Shown piece by piece: positions 31,684-61,546 of a stretch of DNA of 64,000 bases. The notes beneath the pieces are model-generated. The model did no database searches. It was not told the origin of the DNA and saw nothing but the letters and a program-made list of their open reading frames with translations. Each line of letters begins with the position of its first letter. Position 1 is the stretch's first letter. Source of the stretch: Planctomycetota bacterium (GTDB taxonomy: Bacteria; Planctomycetota; J058; J103); contig BPJM01000003.1 in the NCBI GenBank assembly GCA_026004615.1, positions 372,001 through 436,000 of the forward strand. The letters are read 5' to 3'. The translations under genes and the position numbers were made by a program.

Positions 31684-31864
31684 GCCCGCCATCGGTGCCA
31701 GGCAACCGCGGCTGTCGCACCGGCGTCCAGGTCGCTGCCCGCCCCGCGCACAGGGGTCGCGCGGGCGATTGACGCAGCCACCGCTGGCGGGTACACCGGG
31801 GGGCGGCCTGAGCCCGCCGGCGGGCGGCGGGCGCTGCCTGATGCCCGGTCCTGGAGGAGTCCCG

Positions 31865-32749
31865 ATGCGAGCGAGCCTCGGCCGGCGGGCGGGCGCGGTG
31901 GTGCTGGCGGTGCTGGCGAGCGCCTGCGGCAGCCGCAACAGCGTCCTGCTCGAGGACGAGGTGGGGCGGCGGTTCGACGACGCCACGGCGCTGCTCCAGG
32001 AGGGCGAGCAGCACTTCGCGCGGCGCGAGGACCGGGTCCAGGTCCACTTCGCGATCGCGCGCTGGGAGGAGGCGGCGCGCACCGACCCGACCCGGCCGGA
32101 CGTCTGGCTCAAGCTCAGCTATGCGTACTACTGGCTGGCGCACGGCCATCTCCGGTTCGCGGGCGGTGAGGAGGAGGCGATGCGGCGGGCCTACGACAAG
32201 GGCATCGTCGCCGCCGAGCATGCGCTCAAGCTGCTCGCCCCGCAGTTCGCCGCCCGCGTCAAGGCGGGCGAGAGCTGGGAGGAGGCGGTCAAGACCGCGG
32301 GCGCCGAGGCGCTGCCGGCGCTGTACTGGTACGCGACCAACCTCGGCAAGTGGGCGCTCCTGGAGGGGATCGTCAAGACGCTGCGCTACAAGAACCGCAT
32401 CTTCGCCATCATGAGCCGCGTGCACGAGCTGGACGAGCGGTTCTGGTATGCGGGCCCGCACCGGTACTTCGGCGTCTACTACACCAAGATCCCGTTTCCC
32501 GGCGGCGACCTGGAGAAGTCGCGGCAGCACTTCGAACGGGCCGTCGCGCTGGCGCCGCACTACCTGGAGACCAAGGTGCTGTTCGCCTCCGAATACGCGG
32601 TCAAGGCGCAGGACGAGGAGCTGTTCCGCCGGCTGCTCGGCGAGGTGCTGGCGACCCCCGATGATGTGTTGCCGGATCTCGTGCCGGAGAACCGCGTCGC
32701 CAAGAAGACCGCGCAACAGCTGCTGGATTCCATCGAGGAGTACTTCTGA
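31865..32749 (+). CDS. TatT-family TRAP-associated lipoprotein (set 1)
   Basis: A 294-residue lipoprotein: signal peptide and lipobox LASAC (Cys22). The mature part is helical with TPR-like pairs such as WLKLSYAYYWLAHGHLRF and SRQHFERAVALAPHYLETK. This is the TatT (T component) type that partners DctP-like proteins in TRAP systems such as Treponema Tp0956/Tp0957. It is followed by dctP, dctQ and dctM genes in order. The ATG lies behind GGAGGAG. It probably sits in the periplasm, handing ligand to or from the binding protein. Confidence 0.85.
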   Translation: MRASLGRRAGAVVLAVLASACGSRNSVLLEDEVGRRFDDATALLQEGEQHFARREDRVQVHFAIARWEEAARTDPTRPDVWLKLSYAYYWLAHGHLRFAGGEEEAMRRAYDKGIVAAEHALKLLAPQFAARVKAGESWEEAVKTAGAEALPALYWYATNLGKWALLEGIVKTLRYKNRIFAIMSRVHELDERFWYAGPHRYFGVYYTKIPFPGGDLEKSRQHFERAVALAPHYLETKVLFASEYAVKAQDEELFRRLLGEVLATPDDVLPDLVPENRVAKKTAQQLLDSIEEYF

Positions 32750-32800
32750 GCCTGCGGGCGCACCGCGTCCGGATTGCTGGCGCGAGGAGGACGACGGGTC

Positions 32801-33856
32801 ATGCACCGGCCTCGCAACGTCGTGCTCGTGCCGTGGCTGCTGGCCACGGTGCTCGGCCTCGGCCTGGGGGCGGCACCGCCGGTGCCGGCCGCCGAGTTCA
32901 CGCTCAAGATCGCCACCGTCGCGCCCGACCGCACCCCGTGGGCGGAGCTGCTCGCGCGCTACGAGAAGGAGGTGGAGAAGTCCTCCGGCGGCCGGCTCGA
33001 GGTGCGGGTCTACCTCGGCGGCATCAAGGGGGACGAGCAGAGCATCGTGCGCCAGGTCTTCCGCGGCGACAGCCTGCAGATGGGCGGGGTGAGCACCGCT
33101 GCCATGGCGACCGTGGTGCCCGACGTCGACATCCTGGAGCTGCCCTACCTGTTCGACAGCCCCGAAGAGGCCGACCGCATCCTGGACGGGCCGGCGCGGC
33201 CGATCCTCGAGCGCATGCTCGAGGCCAAGGGGATGAAGCTGCTCATGTACTCGGAGAACGGCTACCGCAGCTTCGGCACCCGCTTCGGCTTCGTGCGGCG
33301 GCCCGCCGACCTCAAGGCGCGCAAGATGCGCAGCCAGGAGAGCGAAGTCCACGTGGAGACCTACCGCGCGCTGGGCGCGAGCCCCATCGGGATCGCGGTC
33401 AGCGAGGTGCTGTCGGCGCTGGAGACCGGGGTCGTGGAGGGCTTCGACAACACCCCGCTCTTTACCTTCGCCTCCGGCTGGTACCAGGCCATCTCCTACT
33501 ACACGGTGAGCGAGCACATCTACCAGCCCGCCCTGCTGGTGGTGAACAAGGCGTGGTGGGACGCGCTGCCGCCCGAGCTGCAGCAGGTGCTGCTGGCGCC
33601 GGCGGCGCGGCTGCAGCAGAAGGGGCGCGAGGCGGTGCGGGCGCTGCAGCCGGCGCTCCTGGAGAACTTCGAGGCGGTCGAGGTCAAGGTCTACCGGCTG
33701 ACCGAGCAGGAGAAGGAGGCGTTCCGCGCCGCCACCCGTCCGGTGTGGGACCGGCGGCGTGCGAGCGCCGGGCCGGACGGCAAGGCGCTGCTCGACGCCA
33801 TCCTGAAGGCCAAGCAGCAGGCGCCCGCCGGCGCGCCGGGCGGATCGAGCGGCTAG
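32801..33856 (+). CDS. TRAP transporter substrate-binding protein, DctP family (set 1)
   Basis: A 351-residue periplasmic binding protein. The signal peptide ends near VPAA|E. The mature N terminus FTLKIATVAPDRTPWAEL and RLEVRVYLGGIKGDEQS match DctP (TatP-like). The arginine-containing ligand region FGFVRRPADLKARKMRSQES and later SEVLSALETGVVEGFDNTP follow family order. The ATG at 32801 has GAGGAGG 10 nt upstream; an in-frame TTG lies 9 codons earlier. In systems with a T component the ligand is suspected to be hydrophobic, but it is not identifiable here. Confidence 0.92.
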   Translation: MHRPRNVVLVPWLLATVLGLGLGAAPPVPAAEFTLKIATVAPDRTPWAELLARYEKEVEKSSGGRLEVRVYLGGIKGDEQSIVRQVFRGDSLQMGGVSTAAMATVVPDVDILELPYLFDSPEEADRILDGPARPILERMLEAKGMKLLMYSENGYRSFGTRFGFVRRPADLKARKMRSQESEVHVETYRALGASPIGIAVSEVLSALETGVVEGFDNTPLFTFASGWYQAISYYTVSEHIYQPALLVVNKAWWDALPPELQQVLLAPAARLQQKGREAVRALQPALLENFEAVEVKVYRLTEQEKEAFRAATRPVWDRRRASAGPDGKALLDAILKAKQQAPAGAPGGSSG

Positions 33857-33860
33857 CGAC

Positions 33861-34838
33861 GTGGCGGCCGCGGGCGGCCAGCCGGCCTCCGTCGCGCCCC
33901 GCCCCGCTGCTGGTCCGTGGGCGGCGGCCGCCGCCGCGCTGGATGCCCGCATCTACGCGCTCGAGCGGTTGCTGGTCACCGCCTGCCTGCTCGCGATGAC
34001 CACCACCGTCACCCTGGATATCGTCCACCGCTCGTTCTCCTCGCCCCGCAGCCAGATCGCCGACAAGCTCGCAGCGCTCTGGGGCTGGATCGCCGGCCCG
34101 CCGCCGCCCGCGGTCACGCAGGCGCTGCACCAGGCGGTGGCGCCGGCGGTGCTGGCGGCGCTCGCCTTCGCGTGCGGCTGGGGCGCGTTCGCCGCCGCGC
34201 GCCAGCACGCGGGCCGGCCCGCCCCGCGCGCGCTGGGAGCGGCGGCGGGGCTCGGCGCGGTGGCGGGCGGCTGGGCGCTGGTGCAGCTGGTGGTGCACGT
34301 GCCGAGCCGCTGGGTCTGCCTGGGAATCGTGGTGGCGGGCTGCTGCGGCTACGCCGGGCGCGCCGCGCGCCGCCGCGCGCCCGGCGCCGTGCTGATGGCG
34401 CTGGCGGTGGGCGCGCTCGGCGGCTGGGGCTGCACGCAGCTGCCGCCGGACTACATCTGGAGCCGGGAGCTGTCGCTGGTGCTGCTGACCTGGGTGGCCT
34501 TCCTCGGCGGCAGCATGGCGACACGCGACAATGCGCACATCGTCGTCGGGGCGCTGGCGCGCGCGGTGCCGGCGCCGCTGCGGCCGTGGAGCCGGGCGCT
34601 GGGGCTGCTGGTCACCACCGCCGCCTGCGCCTGGCTGACCGCACTCGCCGTCGAGCACATCTTCGGCCCGCGCGGCGACTGGTTCTCCGGCGAGCGCCGG
34701 CCGGCGACCGGACTGCCCGCCTGGACCATCACCATGGCGGCGCTGGTCGCCTTCGCCCTCATGACGCTGCGCTTCGGCGCGCGTGCGCTCGAGGCGTTCC
34801 TCCATCCCCGCCCCCCCGAGGAAAAGGCGCTGCTGTGA
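33861..34838 (+). CDS. TRAP transporter small permease, DctQ family, enlarged (set 1)
   Basis: Normally DctQ has four helices and 160-200 residues; this one has 325. The first helix (LLVTACLLAMTTTVTLDIVHR) and the later SLVLLTWVAFLGGSMATRDNAH block are recognisable DctQ. Between them about 130 residues carry extra hydrophobic segments (around AVLAALAFACGWGAF, LGAVAGGWALVQLVV, WVCLGIVVAGCCGY), so six to seven helices are likely. The GTG start is 4 nt after the dctP stop, and its own stop overlaps dctM by 4 nt (GTGA). Confidence 0.8.
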   Translation: MAAAGGQPASVAPRPAAGPWAAAAAALDARIYALERLLVTACLLAMTTTVTLDIVHRSFSSPRSQIADKLAALWGWIAGPPPPAVTQALHQAVAPAVLAALAFACGWGAFAAARQHAGRPAPRALGAAAGLGAVAGGWALVQLVVHVPSRWVCLGIVVAGCCGYAGRAARRRAPGAVLMALAVGALGGWGCTQLPPDYIWSRELSLVLLTWVAFLGGSMATRDNAHIVVGALARAVPAPLRPWSRALGLLVTTAACAWLTALAVEHIFGPRGDWFSGERRPATGLPAWTITMAALVAFALMTLRFGARALEAFLHPRPPEEKALL

Positions 34839-36409
34839 TCACCGCGAGCCTGGTGCTGGCGCTGCTGGTGCTGCTCGCGCTGCGGGTGCCGCTGTTCGTC
34901 ATCCTCGGGACGGTCACGGTGGCAGGCTATCTGGTGAGCGGCGAGGTGACGCGACTGCTGGATGCCCCGCTGATCGAGCGGATCCGGGAGCTGACCGACA
35001 AGCCGCCGCTGCTGGCCATCCCGTTCTTCGTGCTCAGCGGCACCATCATGGCGCGGGGCGCCATCGCTCGCCGCCTGGTCGATGTGGCGAGCGCGCTGTT
35101 CAGCTTCGTGCCGGGCGGGCTGGGGATCGCCACCGTCGCCGCCTGCATGTTCTTCGCCGCCATCAGCGGTTCCAGCCCCGCGACCGTCATCACGATCGGC
35201 AGCGTCATGTACCCGGCGCTGGTCGCCCAGGGCTACCGGGAGCGATTCGCCAACGGGCTGGTCACCAGCGCCGGCACGCTGGGCATCCTCATCCCGCCCA
35301 GCATCCCGATGATCGTCTACGCGATCTTCGCCAGCGCCACCACCATCGTGCAGGTCGAGGACCTGTTCCTCGCCGGGCTCGGGCCGGGGCTGCTGATCGG
35401 CGGCATGTTCATGGTCTACTGCGCGATCACCGGTCGGCTCAAGGGCGAGCGGCTGCGCCTGCCGCGCCCCCGCGAGGTCGCGCGCGCCATGCGCAAGGGG
35501 ATCTGGGCGCTCATGCTGCCGGTGCTCATCCTCGGCGGGATCTATTCCGGGCTGTTCACCGCCACCGAGGCGGCGGCGGTGAGCGTGGTCTACGCGCTCG
35601 GGGTGGAACTCGTGATCCATCGCGAGCTGCGCCTGGAGGACATCCCGCGCGTGTTCGGCGAGGCGACGGTGCTGATGGGCAGCCTCCTGGTGATCTTCGC
35701 GATGGCGGTCGGCCTCAACGGGCTGTTCGCCGACCTGGAGCTGCCGCAGCGCGCGGCCGCGTGGCTGGCCGCGCAGGAGCTGACGCCGGTCGGCTTCCTG
35801 CTCGCGCTCAACGGGCTGTTGCTGCTGGTGGGCTGCGTCATGGACATCATGAGCGCGATCATGATCCTGGTGCCGCTGCTCGCGCCGATGGGCGACGCCA
35901 TGGGCATCGACCCCATCCACCTCGGGGTCGTCTTCATCGTGAACCTGGAGCTGGGATATCTGACCCCGCCGCTGGGGCTCAACCTGTTCGTCAGCTCGAC
36001 GCTCTTCGGCACCAGCCTGGGCGCGGTGATCCGTGCCGTGGCGCCGTTCACCGCCATCCTGCTCCTCGCCCTGCTGATCGTCACCTACGTGCCGACGGTC
36101 TCGCTCGGACCGGTCAACCTGCTCAAGGGCCGGCCGTTCTATGCCCCCTTCCCCGAGGCCCGGCCGTCGGCCGCCGAGCCCGGCGCCCCGGCCGCGCCGG
36201 CAGCCCGGCCCGGCGTCCGCACCCTGGAGGAGCTCATGCGCGGCGCCGCCTACCGCTCGATCATGGACGAGGACGAGGGTGAACCGAAGCCGGAACAGCC
36301 GCCGGCGCCGGGGCCGGCCGCCGAGCCCGCACCGCCGAGCAGCCCCCCCGGGGACGGCGGCGCACCGCCGGCGCCGCCGGCGGCGGGCAGGGGCGGCGCA
36401 GACCGCTGA
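34835..36409 (+). CDS. TRAP transporter large permease, DctM family (set 1)
   Basis: Twelve-helix ion-coupled transporter subunit. PPLLAIPFFVLSGTIMARG, the FFAAISGSSPATVITIGS hairpin, LGILIPPSIPMIVYAI and LELGYLTPPLGLNLF are classic DctM motifs. The core ends near residue 430. A further 90 residues form a Pro/Ala/Glu-rich cytoplasmic tail unlike most members (524 residues in total). The GTG start is coupled to dctQ. It is the last gene of TRAP set 1 and convergent with the alpha/beta hydrolase. Confidence 0.92.
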   Translation: MITASLVLALLVLLALRVPLFVILGTVTVAGYLVSGEVTRLLDAPLIERIRELTDKPPLLAIPFFVLSGTIMARGAIARRLVDVASALFSFVPGGLGIATVAACMFFAAISGSSPATVITIGSVMYPALVAQGYRERFANGLVTSAGTLGILIPPSIPMIVYAIFASATTIVQVEDLFLAGLGPGLLIGGMFMVYCAITGRLKGERLRLPRPREVARAMRKGIWALMLPVLILGGIYSGLFTATEAAAVSVVYALGVELVIHRELRLEDIPRVFGEATVLMGSLLVIFAMAVGLNGLFADLELPQRAAAWLAAQELTPVGFLLALNGLLLLVGCVMDIMSAIMILVPLLAPMGDAMGIDPIHLGVVFIVNLELGYLTPPLGLNLFVSSTLFGTSLGAVIRAVAPFTAILLLALLIVTYVPTVSLGPVNLLKGRPFYAPFPEARPSAAEPGAPAAPAARPGVRTLEELMRGAAYRSIMDEDEGEPKPEQPPAPGPAAEPAPPSSPPGDGGAPPAPPAAGRGGADR

Positions 36410-38117: not shown

Positions 38118-39068
38118 ATGCGATCCGGACCGACGAGGCGCGACGGCGCGGTGCGGCTGGCGGCGGTTGCATGGCTGGTCGCGGCCGCCGCGGCCGGCTG
38201 CAACACCACCCGCTTCATGGCCAACAGCATGGTCGGCATGCTCGAGGCCTCCAAGCTCGCCTTCAACCGCGAGCGCAGCGTCGAGCAGGCGCGCGAGGCG
38301 CTGCCGGCGGCGGCGAGCACGATCGACGGGCTGATCGTGGCCTCGCCGCACAACCCGGAGCTGTTGCTCGCCGGCGCGGAGACCCACGCCACCGGTGCCT
38401 TCGGCCTGATCGAGCCGGACGACCCCGAGCGCGCCCGGATCATGTACGACAAGGCGCGGCGGTACGCCGCGCGGGCACTCGCCGAACAGGACGCGGAGCT
38501 GGCAGAGACGGTGGTGCGCGGGCGGCTGGAAGAGGTCCAGCGCGCGCTGGCCGAGATCGAGCCCGGCGACGAGCGGATCCCGGCGCTGTTCTGGACCGCG
38601 TTCGCCTGGGGCAGCTACATCAATCTGTCGCTCGACCGGCCCGACGTGGTGGCGGCGCTGCCGGCGGTGGTCGCCATCATGGAGCGGCTCGCCGAGGTGG
38701 CGCCGGACTACTTCCATGCCGGACCGCACCTGTTCCTGGCGGTCTACTACAGCTCGCGCGGCCCGGCGGTGGGCGGCGAACTGGAACGGGCGCGGCGGCA
38801 CTACCACGAGGTCTTCACGCGCACGCGCGGGCGGCTGCTCATGCCGTACGTGCTGTATGCGCAGCTGTACTGCGTGGCGCTGGGCGGCAGCGAGCCCGAG
38901 CGGGCGCGCGCGCAGTTCACCAAGGCGCTGCGCTGGGTGCTGGACGCCCCGGATGACATCCATCCGGACCAGATCCTGGCGAATGCGATCGCCAAGCGGC
39001 GCGCGGCGGAGCTGTTGCCGGAGCTGGACGACCTGATCTTCCCGCCGCTGCCGCCGGAAGACGGCTAG
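38118..39068 (+). CDS. TatT-family TRAP-associated lipoprotein (set 2)
   Basis: A 316-residue lipoprotein with a signal peptide and lipobox AAAAGC (about Cys32). Helical TPR-like pairs follow, with the family's SLDRPDVVAALPAVVAIMER and FHAGPHLFLAVYYSSRG segments; the latter corresponds to WYAGPHRYFGVYYTKIP in the set 1 paralogue. The two T components are clearly related but divergent. It heads the second T-P-Q-M set. The start codon is decided by the promoter position and signal peptide, since no ribosome-binding site is seen. Confidence 0.85.
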   Translation: MRSGPTRRDGAVRLAAVAWLVAAAAAGCNTTRFMANSMVGMLEASKLAFNRERSVEQAREALPAAASTIDGLIVASPHNPELLLAGAETHATGAFGLIEPDDPERARIMYDKARRYAARALAEQDAELAETVVRGRLEEVQRALAEIEPGDERIPALFWTAFAWGSYINLSLDRPDVVAALPAVVAIMERLAEVAPDYFHAGPHLFLAVYYSSRGPAVGGELERARRHYHEVFTRTRGRLLMPYVLYAQLYCVALGGSEPERARAQFTKALRWVLDAPDDIHPDQILANAIAKRRAAELLPELDDLIFPPLPPEDG

Positions 39069-39201
39069 CGGTCGGGCTCGCGGCCGCAGCCGGCGGGCTC
39101 GGTGCGGCAGCAGCGGGCGCGCGCAGGACACGGTCACGGAACAGCCGGCGCACCGAGGCGGCGCGGACAGCCTCCGGCGCGCGCAGGGGGGAGGTGCCGA
39201 G

Positions 39202-40260
39202 GTGGGACGCATGGTGCGGCAGGCGGTTTGGGGTGCGCTCGGTCTGGCGGTGCTGGCCGCCCTGGCCCCGGTGCCGGCGGAGGCGCAGCGGCGCGGGCGG
39301 CGCGGGGCCGAGGAGCTGAAGCTGGCGCTGCTCGCTCCGGAGGGCACGAGCTGGGCCCGGCTCATGCACGAGTTCGACGCCGAGCTGCGCCGCCGCTCGG
39401 GCGAGGCGCTGGGGCTGCGGCTGTACCTGGGCGGGGTCCAGGGCGACGAGAAGGTGGTGCTGCGCAAGATCAAGGTGGGACAGCTGCACGGCGGCGCCTT
39501 CACCGGGATGGGCATGGGCGAGATCGTCTCCGAGGTGCGGGCGCTGGAGCTGCCGTTCCAGTACGACAGCTACGCCCAGGTCGACCACGTGCGCCAGCGG
39601 CTCGATGCGCGGCTGCGCGAGAGGTTCCGCGCCGGCGGCTACGAGCTGCTGGGGTGGTTCGAGCTGGGGTTCGTGCACCTGTTCTCGACCCGGCCCATCC
39701 GGACCGTGCAGGACGTGCGCTCCGCCAAGCCGTGGGTCTGGGAGGGCGATCCGCTGGCGGAGGCCTATTTCAAGGCCTTCGAGGTGAGCCCGACCCCGCT
39801 GCCGCTGCCGGATGTGCTGACCTCGCTGCAGACCGGGCTGATCGACACCGTCTACCAGTCGCCCATGGCGTGCGTGGGCTTTCAGTGGTACACCAAGCTC
39901 TCGTACATGAGCGATCTGCCGCTGGCCTGCGCCACCGGGGGGTTGTTGCTCAAGCGGTCGGTCTTCGAACGGCTGCCGCGCGAACACCAGGAGCTGCTCC
40001 GCGAGCTGGGCGAGCAGTACAGCGCCCGGGTCATCCAGCTCACGCGCGAGGAGAACGAGGCCGCCAAGCAGACGCTGCAGGAGCACGGCATCCGGATCGT
40101 GCCCTTCGATGCCGCCGAGAGCGCCACCTTCCGCGAGTACGGCAAGCAGGTCAGCTACCAGCTCGCCGGCGAGGGCACCGGCAAGCTGTTCCCGCGGGCG
40201 CTGCTCGACGAGGTGTACGCCTGGCTGGCGGAGACGCGCGACAAGGCCGGGGCGGACTGA
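39202..40260 (+). CDS. TRAP transporter substrate-binding protein, DctP family (set 2)
   Basis: A 352-residue periplasmic protein: signal peptide ending at AEA|Q, an Arg-rich start, then ELKLALLAPEGTSWARLMHE and LRLYLGGVQGDEKVVLRKIK matching the TatP-like branch. GLIDTVYQSPMACVGFQWY replaces the more usual TGxVDG segment, so its ligand probably differs from that of set 1. The GTG at 39202 is preferred over an ATG three codons in because GGGGGAGG lies 8 nt upstream of it. It stands 133 nt after the T component. Confidence 0.88.
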   Translation: MGRMVRQAVWGALGLAVLAALAPVPAEAQRRGRRGAEELKLALLAPEGTSWARLMHEFDAELRRRSGEALGLRLYLGGVQGDEKVVLRKIKVGQLHGGAFTGMGMGEIVSEVRALELPFQYDSYAQVDHVRQRLDARLRERFRAGGYELLGWFELGFVHLFSTRPIRTVQDVRSAKPWVWEGDPLAEAYFKAFEVSPTPLPLPDVLTSLQTGLIDTVYQSPMACVGFQWYTKLSYMSDLPLACATGGLLLKRSVFERLPREHQELLRELGEQYSARVIQLTREENEAAKQTLQEHGIRIVPFDAAESATFREYGKQVSYQLAGEGTGKLFPRALLDEVYAWLAETRDKAGAD

Positions 40261-40275
40261 GGAGGCCATTCGGCC

Positions 40276-40962
40276 TTGGTCCGCGTGCTGCTCGCGCTGT
40301 GTCGCCTGCTCGATGGGGGGCTGTACGCCCTCGAACTGCTGGTCGTCTCCCTCGGCCTGGCGCTGATGGTGGGGCTGTATTCCGCCCAGGTGCTCATGCG
40401 CAACCTGGAGTGGGGCGGGGTGCCCTGGTTCCAGACCGTGGTGCAGCACCTGGTGCTGTGGGTCGGCATGCTCGGCGCCTCGCTCTGCGTGCGCGACCGC
40501 AAGCACATCGCCGTCGAGGTCATCGCCAAATCCGCCACGGCGGGCGGCCGCCGGGTGGTGGAGGGCCTGGTGGACGCCTCCACCATGCTGCTCTGCCTGC
40601 TGCTGGCCTTCATCGCCTGGCGCTACATCGGGTTCTACGAGCGGGATCCCGCGCTCGGGATGAAGGTGCTGTTCGAGCTGGGCGGCGTCCAGGTGCAGCG
40701 CTGGTGGAGTCTGTGCGTGGTCCCCGCCGCCTTCGTGCTCATGGCGTTCCGTTACCTGCGACTGCTGCTCGAGAGCATCTTCGCCGAACACCTCGAGACG
40801 GCCGAGGACGAGATCCGGCGCGAGATGCACACCTATGAGCGGCGGCTGTCGAGCGAGGAGTGGGAGCCGGGCGAGCCGCCGGCGGCGCGCCCGGAAGGAC
40901 GAGCTGCAGGCGGGCCCGCGCCACCCCCGGCGCAGCCCGGCGGTGCCGAGGACGCCCGGTGA
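40276..40962 (+). CDS. TRAP transporter small permease, DctQ family (set 2)
   Basis: A 228-residue protein of normal four-helix DctQ type: an ELLVVSLGLALMVGLYSAQV first helix, then LVLWVGMLGASLCVRDRKHI with the typical RDRKHI loop, two more helices, and a 60-residue acidic then Pro/Ala-rich cytoplasmic tail. The TTG start is chosen because GGAGG sits 10 nt upstream, right after the dctP stop. Its stop overlaps dctM by 4 nt. Confidence 0.88.
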   Translation: MVRVLLALCRLLDGGLYALELLVVSLGLALMVGLYSAQVLMRNLEWGGVPWFQTVVQHLVLWVGMLGASLCVRDRKHIAVEVIAKSATAGGRRVVEGLVDASTMLLCLLLAFIAWRYIGFYERDPALGMKVLFELGGVQVQRWWSLCVVPAAFVLMAFRYLRLLLESIFAEHLETAEDEIRREMHTYERRLSSEEWEPGEPPAARPEGRAAGGPAPPPAQPGGAEDAR

Positions 40963-42287
40963 TCGGCGGCGAGTTCTACTTCGACCTGGCGCCCGGGCTG
41001 TGCCTGTTCCTCGGCGTGCTGCTGGTGCTGTACGCCATGATCGGCAAGCCGCTCTACGCGGTGATCGCCGGCGCGGCGCTGCTGCTCCACGTCTATGCGC
41101 AGATCGACCTCACGGCGATCTTCATCGAAGTGGCGACCCTGGTCGATCAGCCCTATTACATCGCGATCCCCATGTTCGTGCTCGCCGGGACGCTGCTCGC
41201 GGAGAGCAACGCACCGGTGCGGCTGGTGCGCGTGGCGAGTGCGCTGTTCGGCTGGATGCCGGGCGGGCTGGCGGTCGTGGCCACCTTGACCTGCGCGTTC
41301 TTTACCGCGTTCACCGGTGCCAGCGGTGTCACCATCGTGGCGCTGGGAGGGCTGCTCTACCCGGTGCTGCGCAAGGAGCGGTATCCGGAGGGCTTCTCCA
41401 TCGGGCTGCTCACCACCGGCGGCAGCCTCGGACTGCTCTTCCCGCCGAGCCTGCCGATCATCGTCTATGCGCTGATCGGGGGGGTCGATCTGGACAAGCT
41501 GTTCGTCGCCGGCATCGTGCCGGGGCTCTTGCTGGTGGCGGTGATCGGCGGCTACGGGGTGGCGGTGGGAGCCTGGCGGGGCGTGCCCCGGCAGGCCTTC
41601 CACCTCGGCACCGCGCTGCGCGCGGTGCGCGGTGCGATCTGGGAGCTGCCCATCCCCCTGCTCATCGTGGTCGCCATCTACGGCGGGTTCGTGACCGCGA
41701 CCGAGGCGAGCGCGATCGTGGCGCTGTACTGCCTGCTCGTCGAGGTGGTCATCCTGCGCGACCTCAAGCTGCGCGACCTGCCGGTGGTGATGCGCAAGAC
41801 CGCAGAACTGGTGGGCGCCATCCTGGTCATCCTGATCATGGCGCTGGGGCTCAAGAACTACATCATCGACGCCGAGATCCCGCAGGCGATGCTCGCGCTC
41901 ATGCAGGAGCACATCGACAGCCGGCTGACCTTCCTGCTGGTGCTCAACGGGTTCTTGATCCTGGTCGGCTTCCTCTTGGACATCTTCAGCGCCATCCTGG
42001 TCGTGGTGCCGCTGGTGGCGCCGCTGGCGATCGAATACGGGGTCGATCCGGTCCATCTCGGCATCATCTTCCTGACCAACCTGGAGATCGGCTACATGAC
42101 GCCGCCGGTCGGGATCAACCTGTTCCTGGGCAGCCTGCGCTTCGAGCGGCCCATGGTGGAGGTGGCGCGCCATGCGCTGCCGTTCCTGGGGCTGTTGGTC
42201 GGCTGCCTGCTGCTGATCACCTACGTGCCCGACCTCAGCCTGTGGCTGGTGGGGCTGCTGGAGACGGCGAAGGCAGCGGGACCGTAG
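40959..42287 (+). CDS. TRAP transporter large permease, DctM family (set 2)
   Basis: A 442-residue multi-helix transporter. YYIAIPMFVLAGTLLAES, FFTAFTGASGVTIVALGG, LGLLFPPSLPIIVYALIG and LEIGYMTPPVGINLFLG are DctM signature segments. There is no long C-terminal tail, unlike set 1. The GTG start overlaps dctQ (GTGA). The nitrilase fusion gene follows 97 nt later on the same strand and may be co-transcribed. Confidence 0.93.
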   Translation: MIGGEFYFDLAPGLCLFLGVLLVLYAMIGKPLYAVIAGAALLLHVYAQIDLTAIFIEVATLVDQPYYIAIPMFVLAGTLLAESNAPVRLVRVASALFGWMPGGLAVVATLTCAFFTAFTGASGVTIVALGGLLYPVLRKERYPEGFSIGLLTTGGSLGLLFPPSLPIIVYALIGGVDLDKLFVAGIVPGLLLVAVIGGYGVAVGAWRGVPRQAFHLGTALRAVRGAIWELPIPLLIVVAIYGGFVTATEASAIVALYCLLVEVVILRDLKLRDLPVVMRKTAELVGAILVILIMALGLKNYIIDAEIPQAMLALMQEHIDSRLTFLLVLNGFLILVGFLLDIFSAILVVVPLVAPLAIEYGVDPVHLGIIFLTNLEIGYMTPPVGINLFLGSLRFERPMVEVARHALPFLGLLVGCLLLITYVPDLSLWLVGLLETAKAAGP

Positions 42288-51364: not shown

Positions 51365-52957
<1,593 letters not shown>

Positions 52958-53049: not shown

Positions 53050-54990
53050 ATGCGCACCGGCCGTAGGGGCCAGCTCGCCCTCGGAGCGCCGCGGTGGCGT
53101 CTCGCGCCAGCGCGCGGCGGTGCCGGCCGGCTGCTCCTGTTCGCGCTCACGGGGGCGCTGGTGGCACCGGCTGCGCGCGCCGTGCAGGACGTGGTGATCA
53201 CCACCGGTCCGCCGAGCGGTCTGTACCACCCGCTGGGACTGGCCATCGGCGAGGTGTTGGACGGTGTCGCGGGCGGTGCGGTGTTCAAGGCGCACGTGGC
53301 GACCAGCCCCGGCTCGGCGGCCAACCTCCGCCGCCTGGTACGCGGCGAGGCCCAGTTCGCCATCGTGCAGGGGGACGTGCTCTACCTGGCGACCGCCGGT
53401 TCGCCGGCCTTTCCAGAGCCGCTCGGCAGCGTGCGGGCGCTGGCGGTGCTCTACCCCGAGGCGGTGCACCTGATCGCACGGCGGCAGGCCGGGATCCGAA
53501 CCATCGATGACCTGCGCGGCAAGCGCGTCGCGGTGGGCGAGGAGGGAAGCGGCACCGCGCTCACGGTGCGGGGACTGCTGCAGGCGGCGGGGCTGGGCCT
53601 GCAGGCCTTGCAGGCGCGGAGAGTTGCGCCCGCCGCAATGCTCGCGGAACTGGCGGCGGGCACCCTGGACGCCGGGTTCGTGGTCTCGGCGGTGGGCGCC
53701 CCGGCGCTGGTGGAGCTGTTCGAGCGCACGGAGTGCACCCTGGCGCCGCTGGTCGGCGGCGGGCTGCAGGGGGTGATCGAGACCACACCCTACCTCTACC
53801 CGAGCACGATCCCGCCAGGGACGTATCCAGGGCAGCGCGAGCCGGTCGCCACCGCGGGGATGGACGCCATCCTGGTGACCACCGAGGAGGCGCCCGCCGA
53901 CCTGGTGTACGAGGTGGTGGCACAGCTGCACCGCCATGCCGGCTCGCTCGCAGCCCGCCTGCCGTCCGGGGTCGCGGTGTTGCCGGGCGGCGCCGTCGAG
54001 CGGTTGCCGGTGGCGCTCCACCTCGGCGCCATGAGCTACTATCGGGCCGAGGGGCAGCTGGAGCGGCCGCTGCGGGTGCATGTCGGCGTCTTCGTGCGGG
54101 ATGTGTGGGGGCTGGACATCAAGCACGGCAGCTGGAGCGCTGACTTCGAGATCTGGTTCAAGTGGCGCGGCCGCCTCGATGCCGACAACGACGCCTTCGA
54201 CTTCGACCTCATCAACGGGGTGATCCTCGAGCGTACGCGCACGGACGTCGAACGGCTGGGCGGCTGGACGCGGGTGGTCTACCGGGTGCGCGCCGAGATG
54301 CGCGCCAGCTTTCTCCTGCACAACTATCCCTTCGACACCCAGGCCCTGAGCATCCAGATCGAGCACCCGAGCATGACCACGCGCGAGCTGCTGCTGGTGC
54401 CGGACCAGTTCGTCGGCAGCGACATCCGCAACCTCCGCAAGACGGGCTACGCGCCCGGCCTCAAGATCGGCGACTGGGAGGTGTACGACGTGGGCGAGCG
54501 GGTGCTGGAGCACACCTATCCGAGCGACTTCGGATCGCTCATCGAGCCGGGCGGCGGCAGCCGCTATGCGCGCTATGTGTTCGCGATCGCGCTCAAGCGC
54601 CACCTGTGGTCGTACCTGCTCAAGTTCTCCATCCCCCTGGTGCTGATCGCGCTCATGAGCTATGCCGTCTTCTTCATGCACCCCGAGGCGTACGAGACGC
54701 AGATCCTGGTGATCATCTGGGTGCTGTTCACCGCCGTCGAGTTCCACATCTACCAGTCGGAGAACCTGCCGGAGATCGGCTACATGGTCACCGCCGACAT
54801 GTTCTTCATCTGGACGTATGTCGCGGTGCTGCTGCTGCTGGTGGCGACGCTGGTCCGCCACCACATCTACACCCACACCGAGCGAGCGCGGGCGGAAGAG
54901 GCGGTGCGCGGGATCACGCGCGCGGGCCGGCTATTGTACCCGCTGGTGTTCTTCGGCCCGATCGCCGCCCTCATCGCATGGAGCCGCTGA
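53050..54990 (+). CDS. TAXI-type binding domain fused to a pentameric ligand-gated ion channel
   Basis: A 646-residue inner-membrane protein. Signal peptide residues 1-44 (cleavage after ARA). Residues 46-330 are a TAXI-family solute receptor (TTGPPSGLYHPLGLAIGE, ATSPGSAANLRRL, RVAVGEEGSGTALTVRGLL). Residues 338-515 are a Cys-loop/Pro-loop type extracellular domain with HNYPFDTQALSIQIEHP (Pro-loop at 426-431) and no disulfide. Four membrane helices follow: M1 about 521-543 with a proline, M2 548-567, M3 578-602, M4 625-645. The predicted topology (N and C termini outside) suits a pentameric channel. It probably opens an ion pore when the TAXI or channel site binds a small ligand. No TRAP permease is adjacent. 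Confidence 0.87.
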   Translation: MRTGRRGQLALGAPRWRLAPARGGAGRLLLFALTGALVAPAARAVQDVVITTGPPSGLYHPLGLAIGEVLDGVAGGAVFKAHVATSPGSAANLRRLVRGEAQFAIVQGDVLYLATAGSPAFPEPLGSVRALAVLYPEAVHLIARRQAGIRTIDDLRGKRVAVGEEGSGTALTVRGLLQAAGLGLQALQARRVAPAAMLAELAAGTLDAGFVVSAVGAPALVELFERTECTLAPLVGGGLQGVIETTPYLYPSTIPPGTYPGQREPVATAGMDAILVTTEEAPADLVYEVVAQLHRHAGSLAARLPSGVAVLPGGAVERLPVALHLGAMSYYRAEGQLERPLRVHVGVFVRDVWGLDIKHGSWSADFEIWFKWRGRLDADNDAFDFDLINGVILERTRTDVERLGGWTRVVYRVRAEMRASFLLHNYPFDTQALSIQIEHPSMTTRELLLVPDQFVGSDIRNLRKTGYAPGLKIGDWEVYDVGERVLEHTYPSDFGSLIEPGGGSRYARYVFAIALKRHLWSYLLKFSIPLVLIALMSYAVFFMHPEAYETQILVIIWVLFTAVEFHIYQSENLPEIGYMVTADMFFIWTYVAVLLLLVATLVRHHIYTHTERARAEEAVRGITRAGRLLYPLVFFGPIAALIAWSR

Positions 54991-56242
54991 GACCGCCGCG
55001 CCGCGCCGCCTCGCTCCGCACCAGGTCGACCAGCGAGCCGCGGGCCGGATGGCCGAGGGGCCGGTAGGCGAGGATGGCCGCCATGAGGAGCGACTCGGCG
55101 AGCTGGAAGGTGGGGGCATCGCGCAGCGCCTGGAGGTAGCGCGGCAGCTGCTCGCGGAGCCAGGCCGCCTCGCCAGCCCACGCGGCAGTCCGGGGCAGGC
55201 CGGTGCTGGCGGCCAGGCGCGTGCTGCACAGCGCTCGATAGACATACCACGACCAGCGGTGGCCGAACTTGCCCCACATCGTCACCGCTCCCGGCGGCAG
55301 GTCGAACTGATAGTCCTGCCGGTCGGCGGGCAGCACGGTCGCGAGCTCCTCGCGCCGGTCCGGCTCGTAGCGCGCCGCGTACTGCTGGAGCGCACGGGTG
55401 GCGCTGGGGGCAAGCGCGCGTCCGGCGCGCGCCAGCACGTCGCGCGCCTCCAGGAGCAGCCACGCGCTCATCTCCGACAGCCCCGGCACGGTGTGCCGCT
55501 GCCGCCAGCCGCGGCGCACCCGGGGGTACCAGACCCCGGCCTCGAGATCGAAGGTGTCGCCGAACCAGCGCGCGGCCCGCTCGATCGCCGCGGCGCCCTC
55601 GGGGCTGGGCACCGGGGGGACGCTCTCCAGCACCAGCAGCGCGAGCAGGCAGTCCTGGCTCGCCGAGGTGCGCGCCGCCTGCGGGCCGATCAGCACCGAG
55701 GAGAAGCTGCCGTCGGGGTTCTGGATGGCGAGCAGAAAGGCGCGGGTGCGGGCGGCGGCCTCGTGCAGCTCCGCCCCCAGCCGCAGCCACGCCATGCCGA
55801 CCGCCGTGCCGACCCAGCCGCTCGGCTCGCCGCCGCCGATGGTGTCGGCGCTCAGATCGAGCGGCCAGCCGCCGTGCGGCGCCTCGAGCCCCGTGCCCGG
55901 AAACGGTGCCGCGAGCGCGCCCTGGAGGCAGTAGGCGATCTGGTGGCGCAGCCGCTCGCGGTCGGCCGGCTCGAAGCACGCTGCCAGGGCGGCTGCCGCC
56001 TCGCCGGTGGTCCAGTAATCCGGCGCGGCGTGGATCATGTGGCCGAAGGTGCCCCCGGGTGCCTGGCGCGCGAGCAGCTCGGCGCGCAGGTAGTGGACCG
56101 CGCGCGCCTCGGGGCTGCGCGCGCGGGTCACGAACCACCACGCCACGGCGCCGGCGGCGCCGAACAGCAGCAGCACGAGCACGAGCAGGCGCACGCCGCC
56201 GGCGGCAGGACAGCGGTGGACGCAGCGGTGGGGCGGTGCCAT
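54971..56242 (-). CDS. Membrane-anchored alpha/alpha-toroid-like protein of unknown function
   Basis: A 423-residue protein with one N-terminal membrane segment (about 18-40, VRLLVLVLLLFGAAGAVAWW), the rest extracytoplasmic. Repeated Trp/Gly helical pairs (TTGEAAAALAACF, GWVGTAVGMAWLRLGAEL, NPDGSFSS, SASQDCLLALLVLE, SEMSAWLLLEARD) resemble the six-hairpin toroid of terpene cyclase/prenyltransferase-like or pectate lyase-like folds. No DxDD or other catalytic motif is seen. Its 3' end overlaps the channel gene's 3' end by 20 nt on the opposite strand. No function is assigned. Confidence 0.65.
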   Translation of the reverse strand: MAPPHRCVHRCPAAGGVRLLVLVLLLFGAAGAVAWWFVTRARSPEARAVHYLRAELLARQAPGGTFGHMIHAAPDYWTTGEAAAALAACFEPADRERLRHQIAYCLQGALAAPFPGTGLEAPHGGWPLDLSADTIGGGEPSGWVGTAVGMAWLRLGAELHEAAARTRAFLLAIQNPDGSFSSVLIGPQAARTSASQDCLLALLVLESVPPVPSPEGAAAIERAARWFGDTFDLEAGVWYPRVRRGWRQRHTVPGLSEMSAWLLLEARDVLARAGRALAPSATRALQQYAARYEPDRREELATVLPADRQDYQFDLPPGAVTMWGKFGHRWSWYVYRALCSTRLAASTGLPRTAAWAGEAAWLREQLPRYLQALRDAPTFQLAESLLMAAILAYRPLGHPARGSLVDLVRSEAARRGGLSGSMR

Positions 56243-61473: not shown

Positions 61474-61546
61474 TGAGGGCGCAGGGGATCGAACCCTGGA
61501 CCCGCGGCTTAAAAGGCCGCCGCTCTACCGGCTGAGCTACGCCCTC
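61474..61546 (-). tRNA. tRNA-Lys(UUU)
   Basis: A 73-nt cloverleaf: 7-bp perfect acceptor GAGGGCG/CGCCCTC, D arm GCTC/GAGC, anticodon stem GCGGC/GCCGC with loop CTTTTAA (anticodon TTT), variable GGGTC, T arm CAGGG-TTCGATC-CCCTG and discriminator A. The 3' CCA is not encoded. The overlapping predicted promoter places transcription initiation at the mature 5' end. Confidence 0.97.

Follow-up and report, generated by a model that had tools for sequence, protein, structure and literature searches.

Identity and fold of the fusion protein

The frame at 53050-54990 raises the question of whether a periplasmic TAXI-type solute receptor has been joined, in one polypeptide, to a pentameric ligand-gated ion channel (pLGIC) subunit and whether the product would work as a solute-gated channel, as proposed in the initial annotation. 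In the window, i.e., the whole 64,000-nucleotide stretch of planctomycetal DNA that was analyzed, the frame runs on the forward strand with an ATG start, 646 aa, and zero internal stops. It encodes, in order, a putative signal peptide, a complete TAXI solute-binding domain, a linker about 5 residues long, and an entire pLGIC subunit:

53050..54990, forward strand: TAXI-pLGIC fusion gene; ATG start, 646 aa plus stop
53050..53181, forward strand: putative N-terminal signal peptide (residues 1-44), recognized by eye from a hydrophobic stretch, then ARA before VQD
53182..54054, forward strand: TAXI (NMT1_3/TIGR02122) solute-binding domain (residues 45-335), from profile matches and a structure match
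54055..54069, forward strand: linker from the TAXI C terminus to strand beta-1 of the extracellular domain (residues 336-340), from the domain ends and a strand predicted at 341
54070..54600, forward strand: pLGIC extracellular (periplasmic) beta-sandwich domain (ECD; residues 341-517), from AlphaFold2 and Foldseek
54325..54342, forward strand: Pro-loop YPFDTQ (residues 426-431) with the invariant P427 and D429, from alignment
54604..54675, forward strand: M1 (residues 519-542), from AlphaFold2
54691..54762, forward strand: M2 pore helix (residues 548-571), from AlphaFold2 and the M2 alignment
54790..54876, forward strand: M3 (residues 581-609), from AlphaFold2
54883..54984, forward strand: M4 (residues 612-645), from AlphaFold2

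Both TAXI profiles match the protein well above their cut-offs: TIGR02122 (TRAP_TAXI) with E = 1.1e-67 and 228 bits (cut-off, 84) and Pfam NMT1_3 over residues 50-335 with E = 3.9e-55 and 187.9 bits (cut-off, 27), spanning model positions 1-289 of 289. The closest solved structure to this domain is that of TtGluBP (1us4; E = 1.2e-39). The channel half is matched by NF033918 (LGIC_1) at 5.7e-13 and 52.3 bits, where the cut-off, set for a narrow subfamily, is 500, and by TIGR00860 at 3.5e-10, far below the curated cut-off. GLIC chains match it by sequence at about 1e-12, with an identity of only about 19-20%. Of the two channel profiles named in the initial annotation, Neur_chan_memb gives a marginal match to the channel half alone (2.7e-6; 28.3 bits; cut-off, 28.1) and 26.6 bits with the whole protein, whereas Neur_chan_LBD matched neither the fusion protein nor the channel half, and the ECD was therefore assessed by fold.

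AlphaFold2, run on a 70-sequence alignment, predicts a beta-sandwich ECD and four long helices for the channel half, with pLDDT mostly 90-97, and a Foldseek search of the PDB with this half retrieves GLIC with E = 4.0e-21 and a TM of 0.80 of the target. For the TAXI half, where the alignment holds only two sequences, the model is poor; a low-confidence helix is predicted at residues 24-38, inside the putative signal peptide. Both halves show a codon bias like that of coding sequence (GC3, 0.91 and 0.94). Profile matches to both parts within one frame, together with the GLIC-like predicted fold, confirm that the fusion of a TAXI receptor to a pLGIC is real; neither of the two outcomes named beforehand as fatal to the initial annotation occurred. 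Both domain identities were thus read correctly at the outset, and the domain bounds and M2 position first given were right to within a few residues.

Gating interface and pore

The invariant P427 and D429 of the Pro-loop are present, as is the pre-M1 R517, and the gating interface further retains Y522, P574 (M2-M3), and Y578. When M2 is aligned without gaps to GLIC and homologs for numbering, the window copy has E549 at -2', L553 at 2', W557 at 6', F560 at 9', E564 at 13', and I567 at 16'. Leu at 2', Trp at 6', and Glu at 13' are each found in 1 of 70 homologs, the window copy itself. The usual residues are Ser or Gly at 2', Gly or Thr at 6', and Phe or Ala at 13'; a few homologs have Leu, Ile, or Val at 6' or Met, Ile, or Val at 2'. 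Positions 2', 6', and 13' face the pore in the geometry of GLIC, and a ring of five Trp residues at 6' should therefore narrow or close a GLIC-like pore. Because each of the three residues is unique among the 70 homologs, it is doubtful that a homopentamer of the window subunit would conduct ions. The proposal of a solute-gated channel thus fares better for the family, for which ligand gating can fairly be assumed, than for this copy, the pore residues of which, overlooked in the initial annotation, speak against it.

The source genome contains three TAXI-pLGIC genes, on separate contigs. The second intact copy (the C4 paralog; L012:5346-7256, reverse strand) encodes 636 aa, matches NMT1_3 at 6.1e-47 and Neur_chan_memb at 5.3e-11, and has an ordinary pore, with Gly at 2', Ala at 6', Leu at 9', and Val at 13'. 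It carries Ala-Arg at -1'/0', an anion-type motif (PMC549065); position -2' of the window copy is Glu, the residue found in GLIC. Selectivities read from these residues are putative. The third copy, at the end of contig C2 (L013:1-3500), is broken into several frames. This may be an assembly fault, because an adjoining mutase-like gene also looks broken across frames; intact relatives exist elsewhere.

It is possible, if somewhat unlikely, that the window copy serves as a regulatory subunit or one that does not conduct, which would sense solute through its TAXI domain and either work only in heteropentamers with the C4 (and C2) paralogs or act as a receptor without ion flow. The contrast between its bulky or charged residues at 2', 6', and 13' and the ordinary pore of the C4 paralog points in this direction, as do the presence of three such genes in one genome and the conservation of the remainder of the protein, gating interface included. 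However, the paralogous genes lie on separate contigs, and the few homologs with less usual residues at 6' and 2' weaken the argument from the pore. In our view, a heteropentamer with the C4 paralog is at least as likely for the window copy as a conducting homopentamer.

Candidate ligand and proposed coupling to the channel

In the alignment, TAXI pocket residues Y59, S89, Q107, E137, G168, and T169 match TtGluBP, and Y59 and Q107 correspond to Tyr45 and Gln93 of VcGluP, the two key affinity residues of that protein, mutation of which cuts glutamate affinity 213- and 990-fold (PMC11574862). The proposed ligand is an amino acid or a related organic acid, and the retained polar residues of the pocket make the glutamate/glutamine class most likely for the window copy. 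This assignment is a guess: V211 stands where VcGluP has its sandwiching Tyr200, and the kept residues are widespread among TAXI proteins (Y45, 78%; Q93, 54%; PMC11574862). A fourth fusion, of 663 aa, is encoded in a separate assembly from a different family of the phylum (G089; Planctomycetota JACPWG; L041 = L059). None of the positions equivalent to Y45, S75, Q93, and E125 keeps its residue in this homolog, where almost the entire pocket differs, so that the family would have no common ligand. We know of no physiological ligands for most bacterial pLGICs, and a TAXI domain with a recognizable glutamate-type pocket offers a concrete candidate for one of them.

The window gene probably encodes a periplasm-facing pLGIC subunit in which a covalently attached TAXI Venus flytrap serves as the sensor, in place of the free binding protein of TRAP systems. 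In the assembled pentamer, an amino acid or related organic acid would bind between the two TAXI lobes, and lobe closure would act through the 5-residue linker on strand beta-1 of the ECD. From beta-1, the movement would pass by way of the conserved Pro-loop, the pre-M1 Arg, and the M2-M3 interface to the pore helices and so change gating and, with it, ion flow. A mechanical link of this kind is favored because the linker has only about 5 residues and joins beta-1 directly; being stiff, the linkage makes it possible to ask if closure of the flytrap can drive a pentameric channel.

Alternatively, the TAXI domain may only capture and concentrate solute and hand it over to the ordinary inter-subunit site of the ECD, in which case closure would not be the gating step. 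A role of this kind was proposed for PBP-I fusions and PBP-II neighbor genes of bacterial pLGICs (Tasneem 2005; PMC549065), but the short linker would leave little room for a hand-over and the direct joint to beta-1 fits mechanical coupling better, making this alternative quite improbable here. A wider proposal would be a family of amino-acid-gated channels with a TAXI flytrap gating a pentameric Cys-loop-type pore, in which some paralogs are specialized to conduct and another is pore-plugged and regulatory, together forming a natural bacterial heteromeric receptor. This proposal is tentative and, taken as a whole, unlikely; if true, it would describe a heteromeric receptor made from two parts not previously reported together.

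Relation to known systems

GLIC is the best match to the channel half by both sequence and fold. The window protein shares with it and with other prokaryotic pLGICs (NF033918, LGIC_1) the ECD beta-sandwich, the four transmembrane helices, the Pro-loop, the pre-M1 Arg, and the M2-M3 Pro, whereas GLIC is without an N-terminal domain and has other residues at 2', 6', and 13'. The PBP-I-pLGIC fusions (L050, L079, L101, L111, and L171-L175) also have a bilobed periplasmic solute-binding domain N-terminal to a pLGIC, but this domain is a type I PBP (Peripla_BP_6/ANF_receptor) rather than TAXI, and their channel halves are separate in the tree. The Peripla_BP_6 and ANF_receptor profiles did not match the window protein, with L171-L175 being positive. 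A flytrap-type amino-acid-binding domain on an ion channel is also found in iGluR, although the likeness is by analogy only: iGluR is a tetrameric P-loop channel with a pore fold unrelated to that of pLGICs. The Ca-sensitive DeCLIC is a pLGIC with an additional N-terminal periplasmic domain, which differs in consisting of two jelly-roll lobes that bind calcium and in not being a solute-binding protein (PMC12664993).

Among TAXI proteins, TtGluBP and VcGluP have the entire TAXI domain and the polar pocket residues in common with the window protein but are free proteins that serve a fused TRAP permease. In TAXI-GltS fusions, TAXI is likewise N-terminal to a non-TRAP membrane protein, although the partner is a Na+/glutamate symporter and not an ion channel; these fusions, the known case of TAXI joined to a non-TRAP protein, are a precedent for TAXI leaving TRAP through fusion (PMC12344293).

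The statement in the initial annotation that binding-protein-like extra domains occur on channel homologs is borne out by the PBP-I fusions and PBP-II neighbor genes described in 2005 (PMC549065). In a 2016 inventory, a word search turned up nothing on fused, N-terminal, or periplasmic domains (PMC4795631). According to a 2025 paper, "little is known" about pLGIC N-terminal domains, and DeCLIC is the only pLGIC in which such a domain is partly characterized (PMC12664993). No report of a TAXI- or PBP-II-pLGIC fusion was found in the open literature searched, with subscription papers and preprints lying outside it; InterPro may already list the architecture. PBP-fused pLGICs are already known, the TAXI version is real and little-known, and, judging from sequence, its function as a solute-gated channel is plausible.

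Genomic context and transport partners

Two genes flank the fusion gene:

51365..52957, reverse strand: divergent neighbor with FHA (1.1e-20), Ser/Thr kinase (Pkinase, 7.1e-40), and DUF4388 domains
54971..56242, reverse strand: convergent neighbor that shares 20 bases with the 3' end of the fusion gene; matches no Pfam family

The divergent FHA kinase is thus where it had been placed, but it was rejected as a functional partner: the two genes share only a divergent orientation, and the other fusion copies have no such neighbor. The C4 paralog lies about 20 bases behind a same-strand gene for a DeoC/LacD-family aldolase and faces a phosphofructokinase gene in convergent orientation (L012:3977-8296), and the G089 fusion gene has a divergent OmpR-type regulator beside it. 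Across these fusion genes, with an FHA kinase, aldolase/phosphofructokinase, and an OmpR-type regulator as the respective neighbors, there is no conserved operon partner that would hint at the target of channel signaling. The sole Rfam match in the window is a tRNA gene at 61474-61546 on the reverse strand.

TAXI systems work with a fused TRAP membrane protein (PMC12344293). In the source genome, which is 77.7% complete, no free TAXI protein was found, the only TAXI matches being the fusions, and a search with TIGR02123 recovered no TAXI-type fused permease; the only two genes that it matched, weakly at 37 and 26 bits (cut-off, 321), are both DctM genes. The TAXI domain would therefore be without a partner in a transport role, in line with the original reading, although, with the assembly incomplete, a permease or a free TAXI gene may yet lie in the missing part. 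The accompanying statement that no TRAP permease lies beside the gene is correct for the adjacent genes, but two DctP-type TRAP operons (31769-36406 and 38118-42284) are located 11-21 kb upstream of the fusion in the window. Each has genes for TatT (the TRAP T-component), DctP, and DctM and a DctQ-like ORF.

Recurrence, distribution, and phylogeny

A profile made from the three intact fusions is matched in a single frame over positions 2-596 and 3-596 by both complete copies in the source genome. Although that genome is a single metagenome-type assembly of 17 contigs with a third copy broken at a contig end, an assembly chimera, or a merger of adjacent genes through a missed stop, can be dismissed with near certainty, since the same architecture is present in the intact paralog and in the G089 homolog.

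Matches to pLGICs at E of ≤1e-6 were found in 26 of 392 sampled Planctomycetota genomes; among the matches inspected, the TAXI fusion occurs only in the source genome (G000) and in G089, and a PBP-I fusion occurs in G069 (L050). The latter protein (L050:4624-6933; Peripla_BP_6) is strongly diverged from other PBP-I fusions. No TAXI fusion spanning both domains was found among the matches listed for 398 Pseudomonadota genomes (best three candidates per genome), and all five of the long-frame pLGICs examined from that phylum (L171-L175) are PBP-I fusions. An alignment-based scan of genome contigs provided 80 GTDB loci, one with TAXI (the G089 protein) and three with PBP-I; the viral contigs searched contained no relatives. 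Long N-terminal extensions in L112, L064, L065, L078, L062, L115, and L134 were read as upstream false starts, and no Pfam domains were found in those of L064, L078, L112, and L115.

Within a tree built from 50 channel halves, one clade (90/77) unites the four TAXI-fused proteins with the unfused L060 (Ectothiorhodospiraceae), and the PBP-I-fused channel halves sit apart from it, which suggests that solute-binding proteins have been joined to pLGICs at least twice. Because L060 falls inside the clade, for which support is moderate, a single TAXI fusion followed by loss in L060 and more than one gain are both possible; a tree of the TAXI domains alone left the monophyly of the fused ones unsettled.

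Two plain pLGIC genes stand in tandem in another planctomycete (G304; L047:6203-8092). Related planctomycetes of the same class as the source genome encode tandem double-TAXI proteins (L147:6659-8410, L148:8526-10300, L182, L183, L184, and L188), several of which have a lipoprotein-like N terminus; behind those in L147 and L148, a similar secreted protein is encoded.
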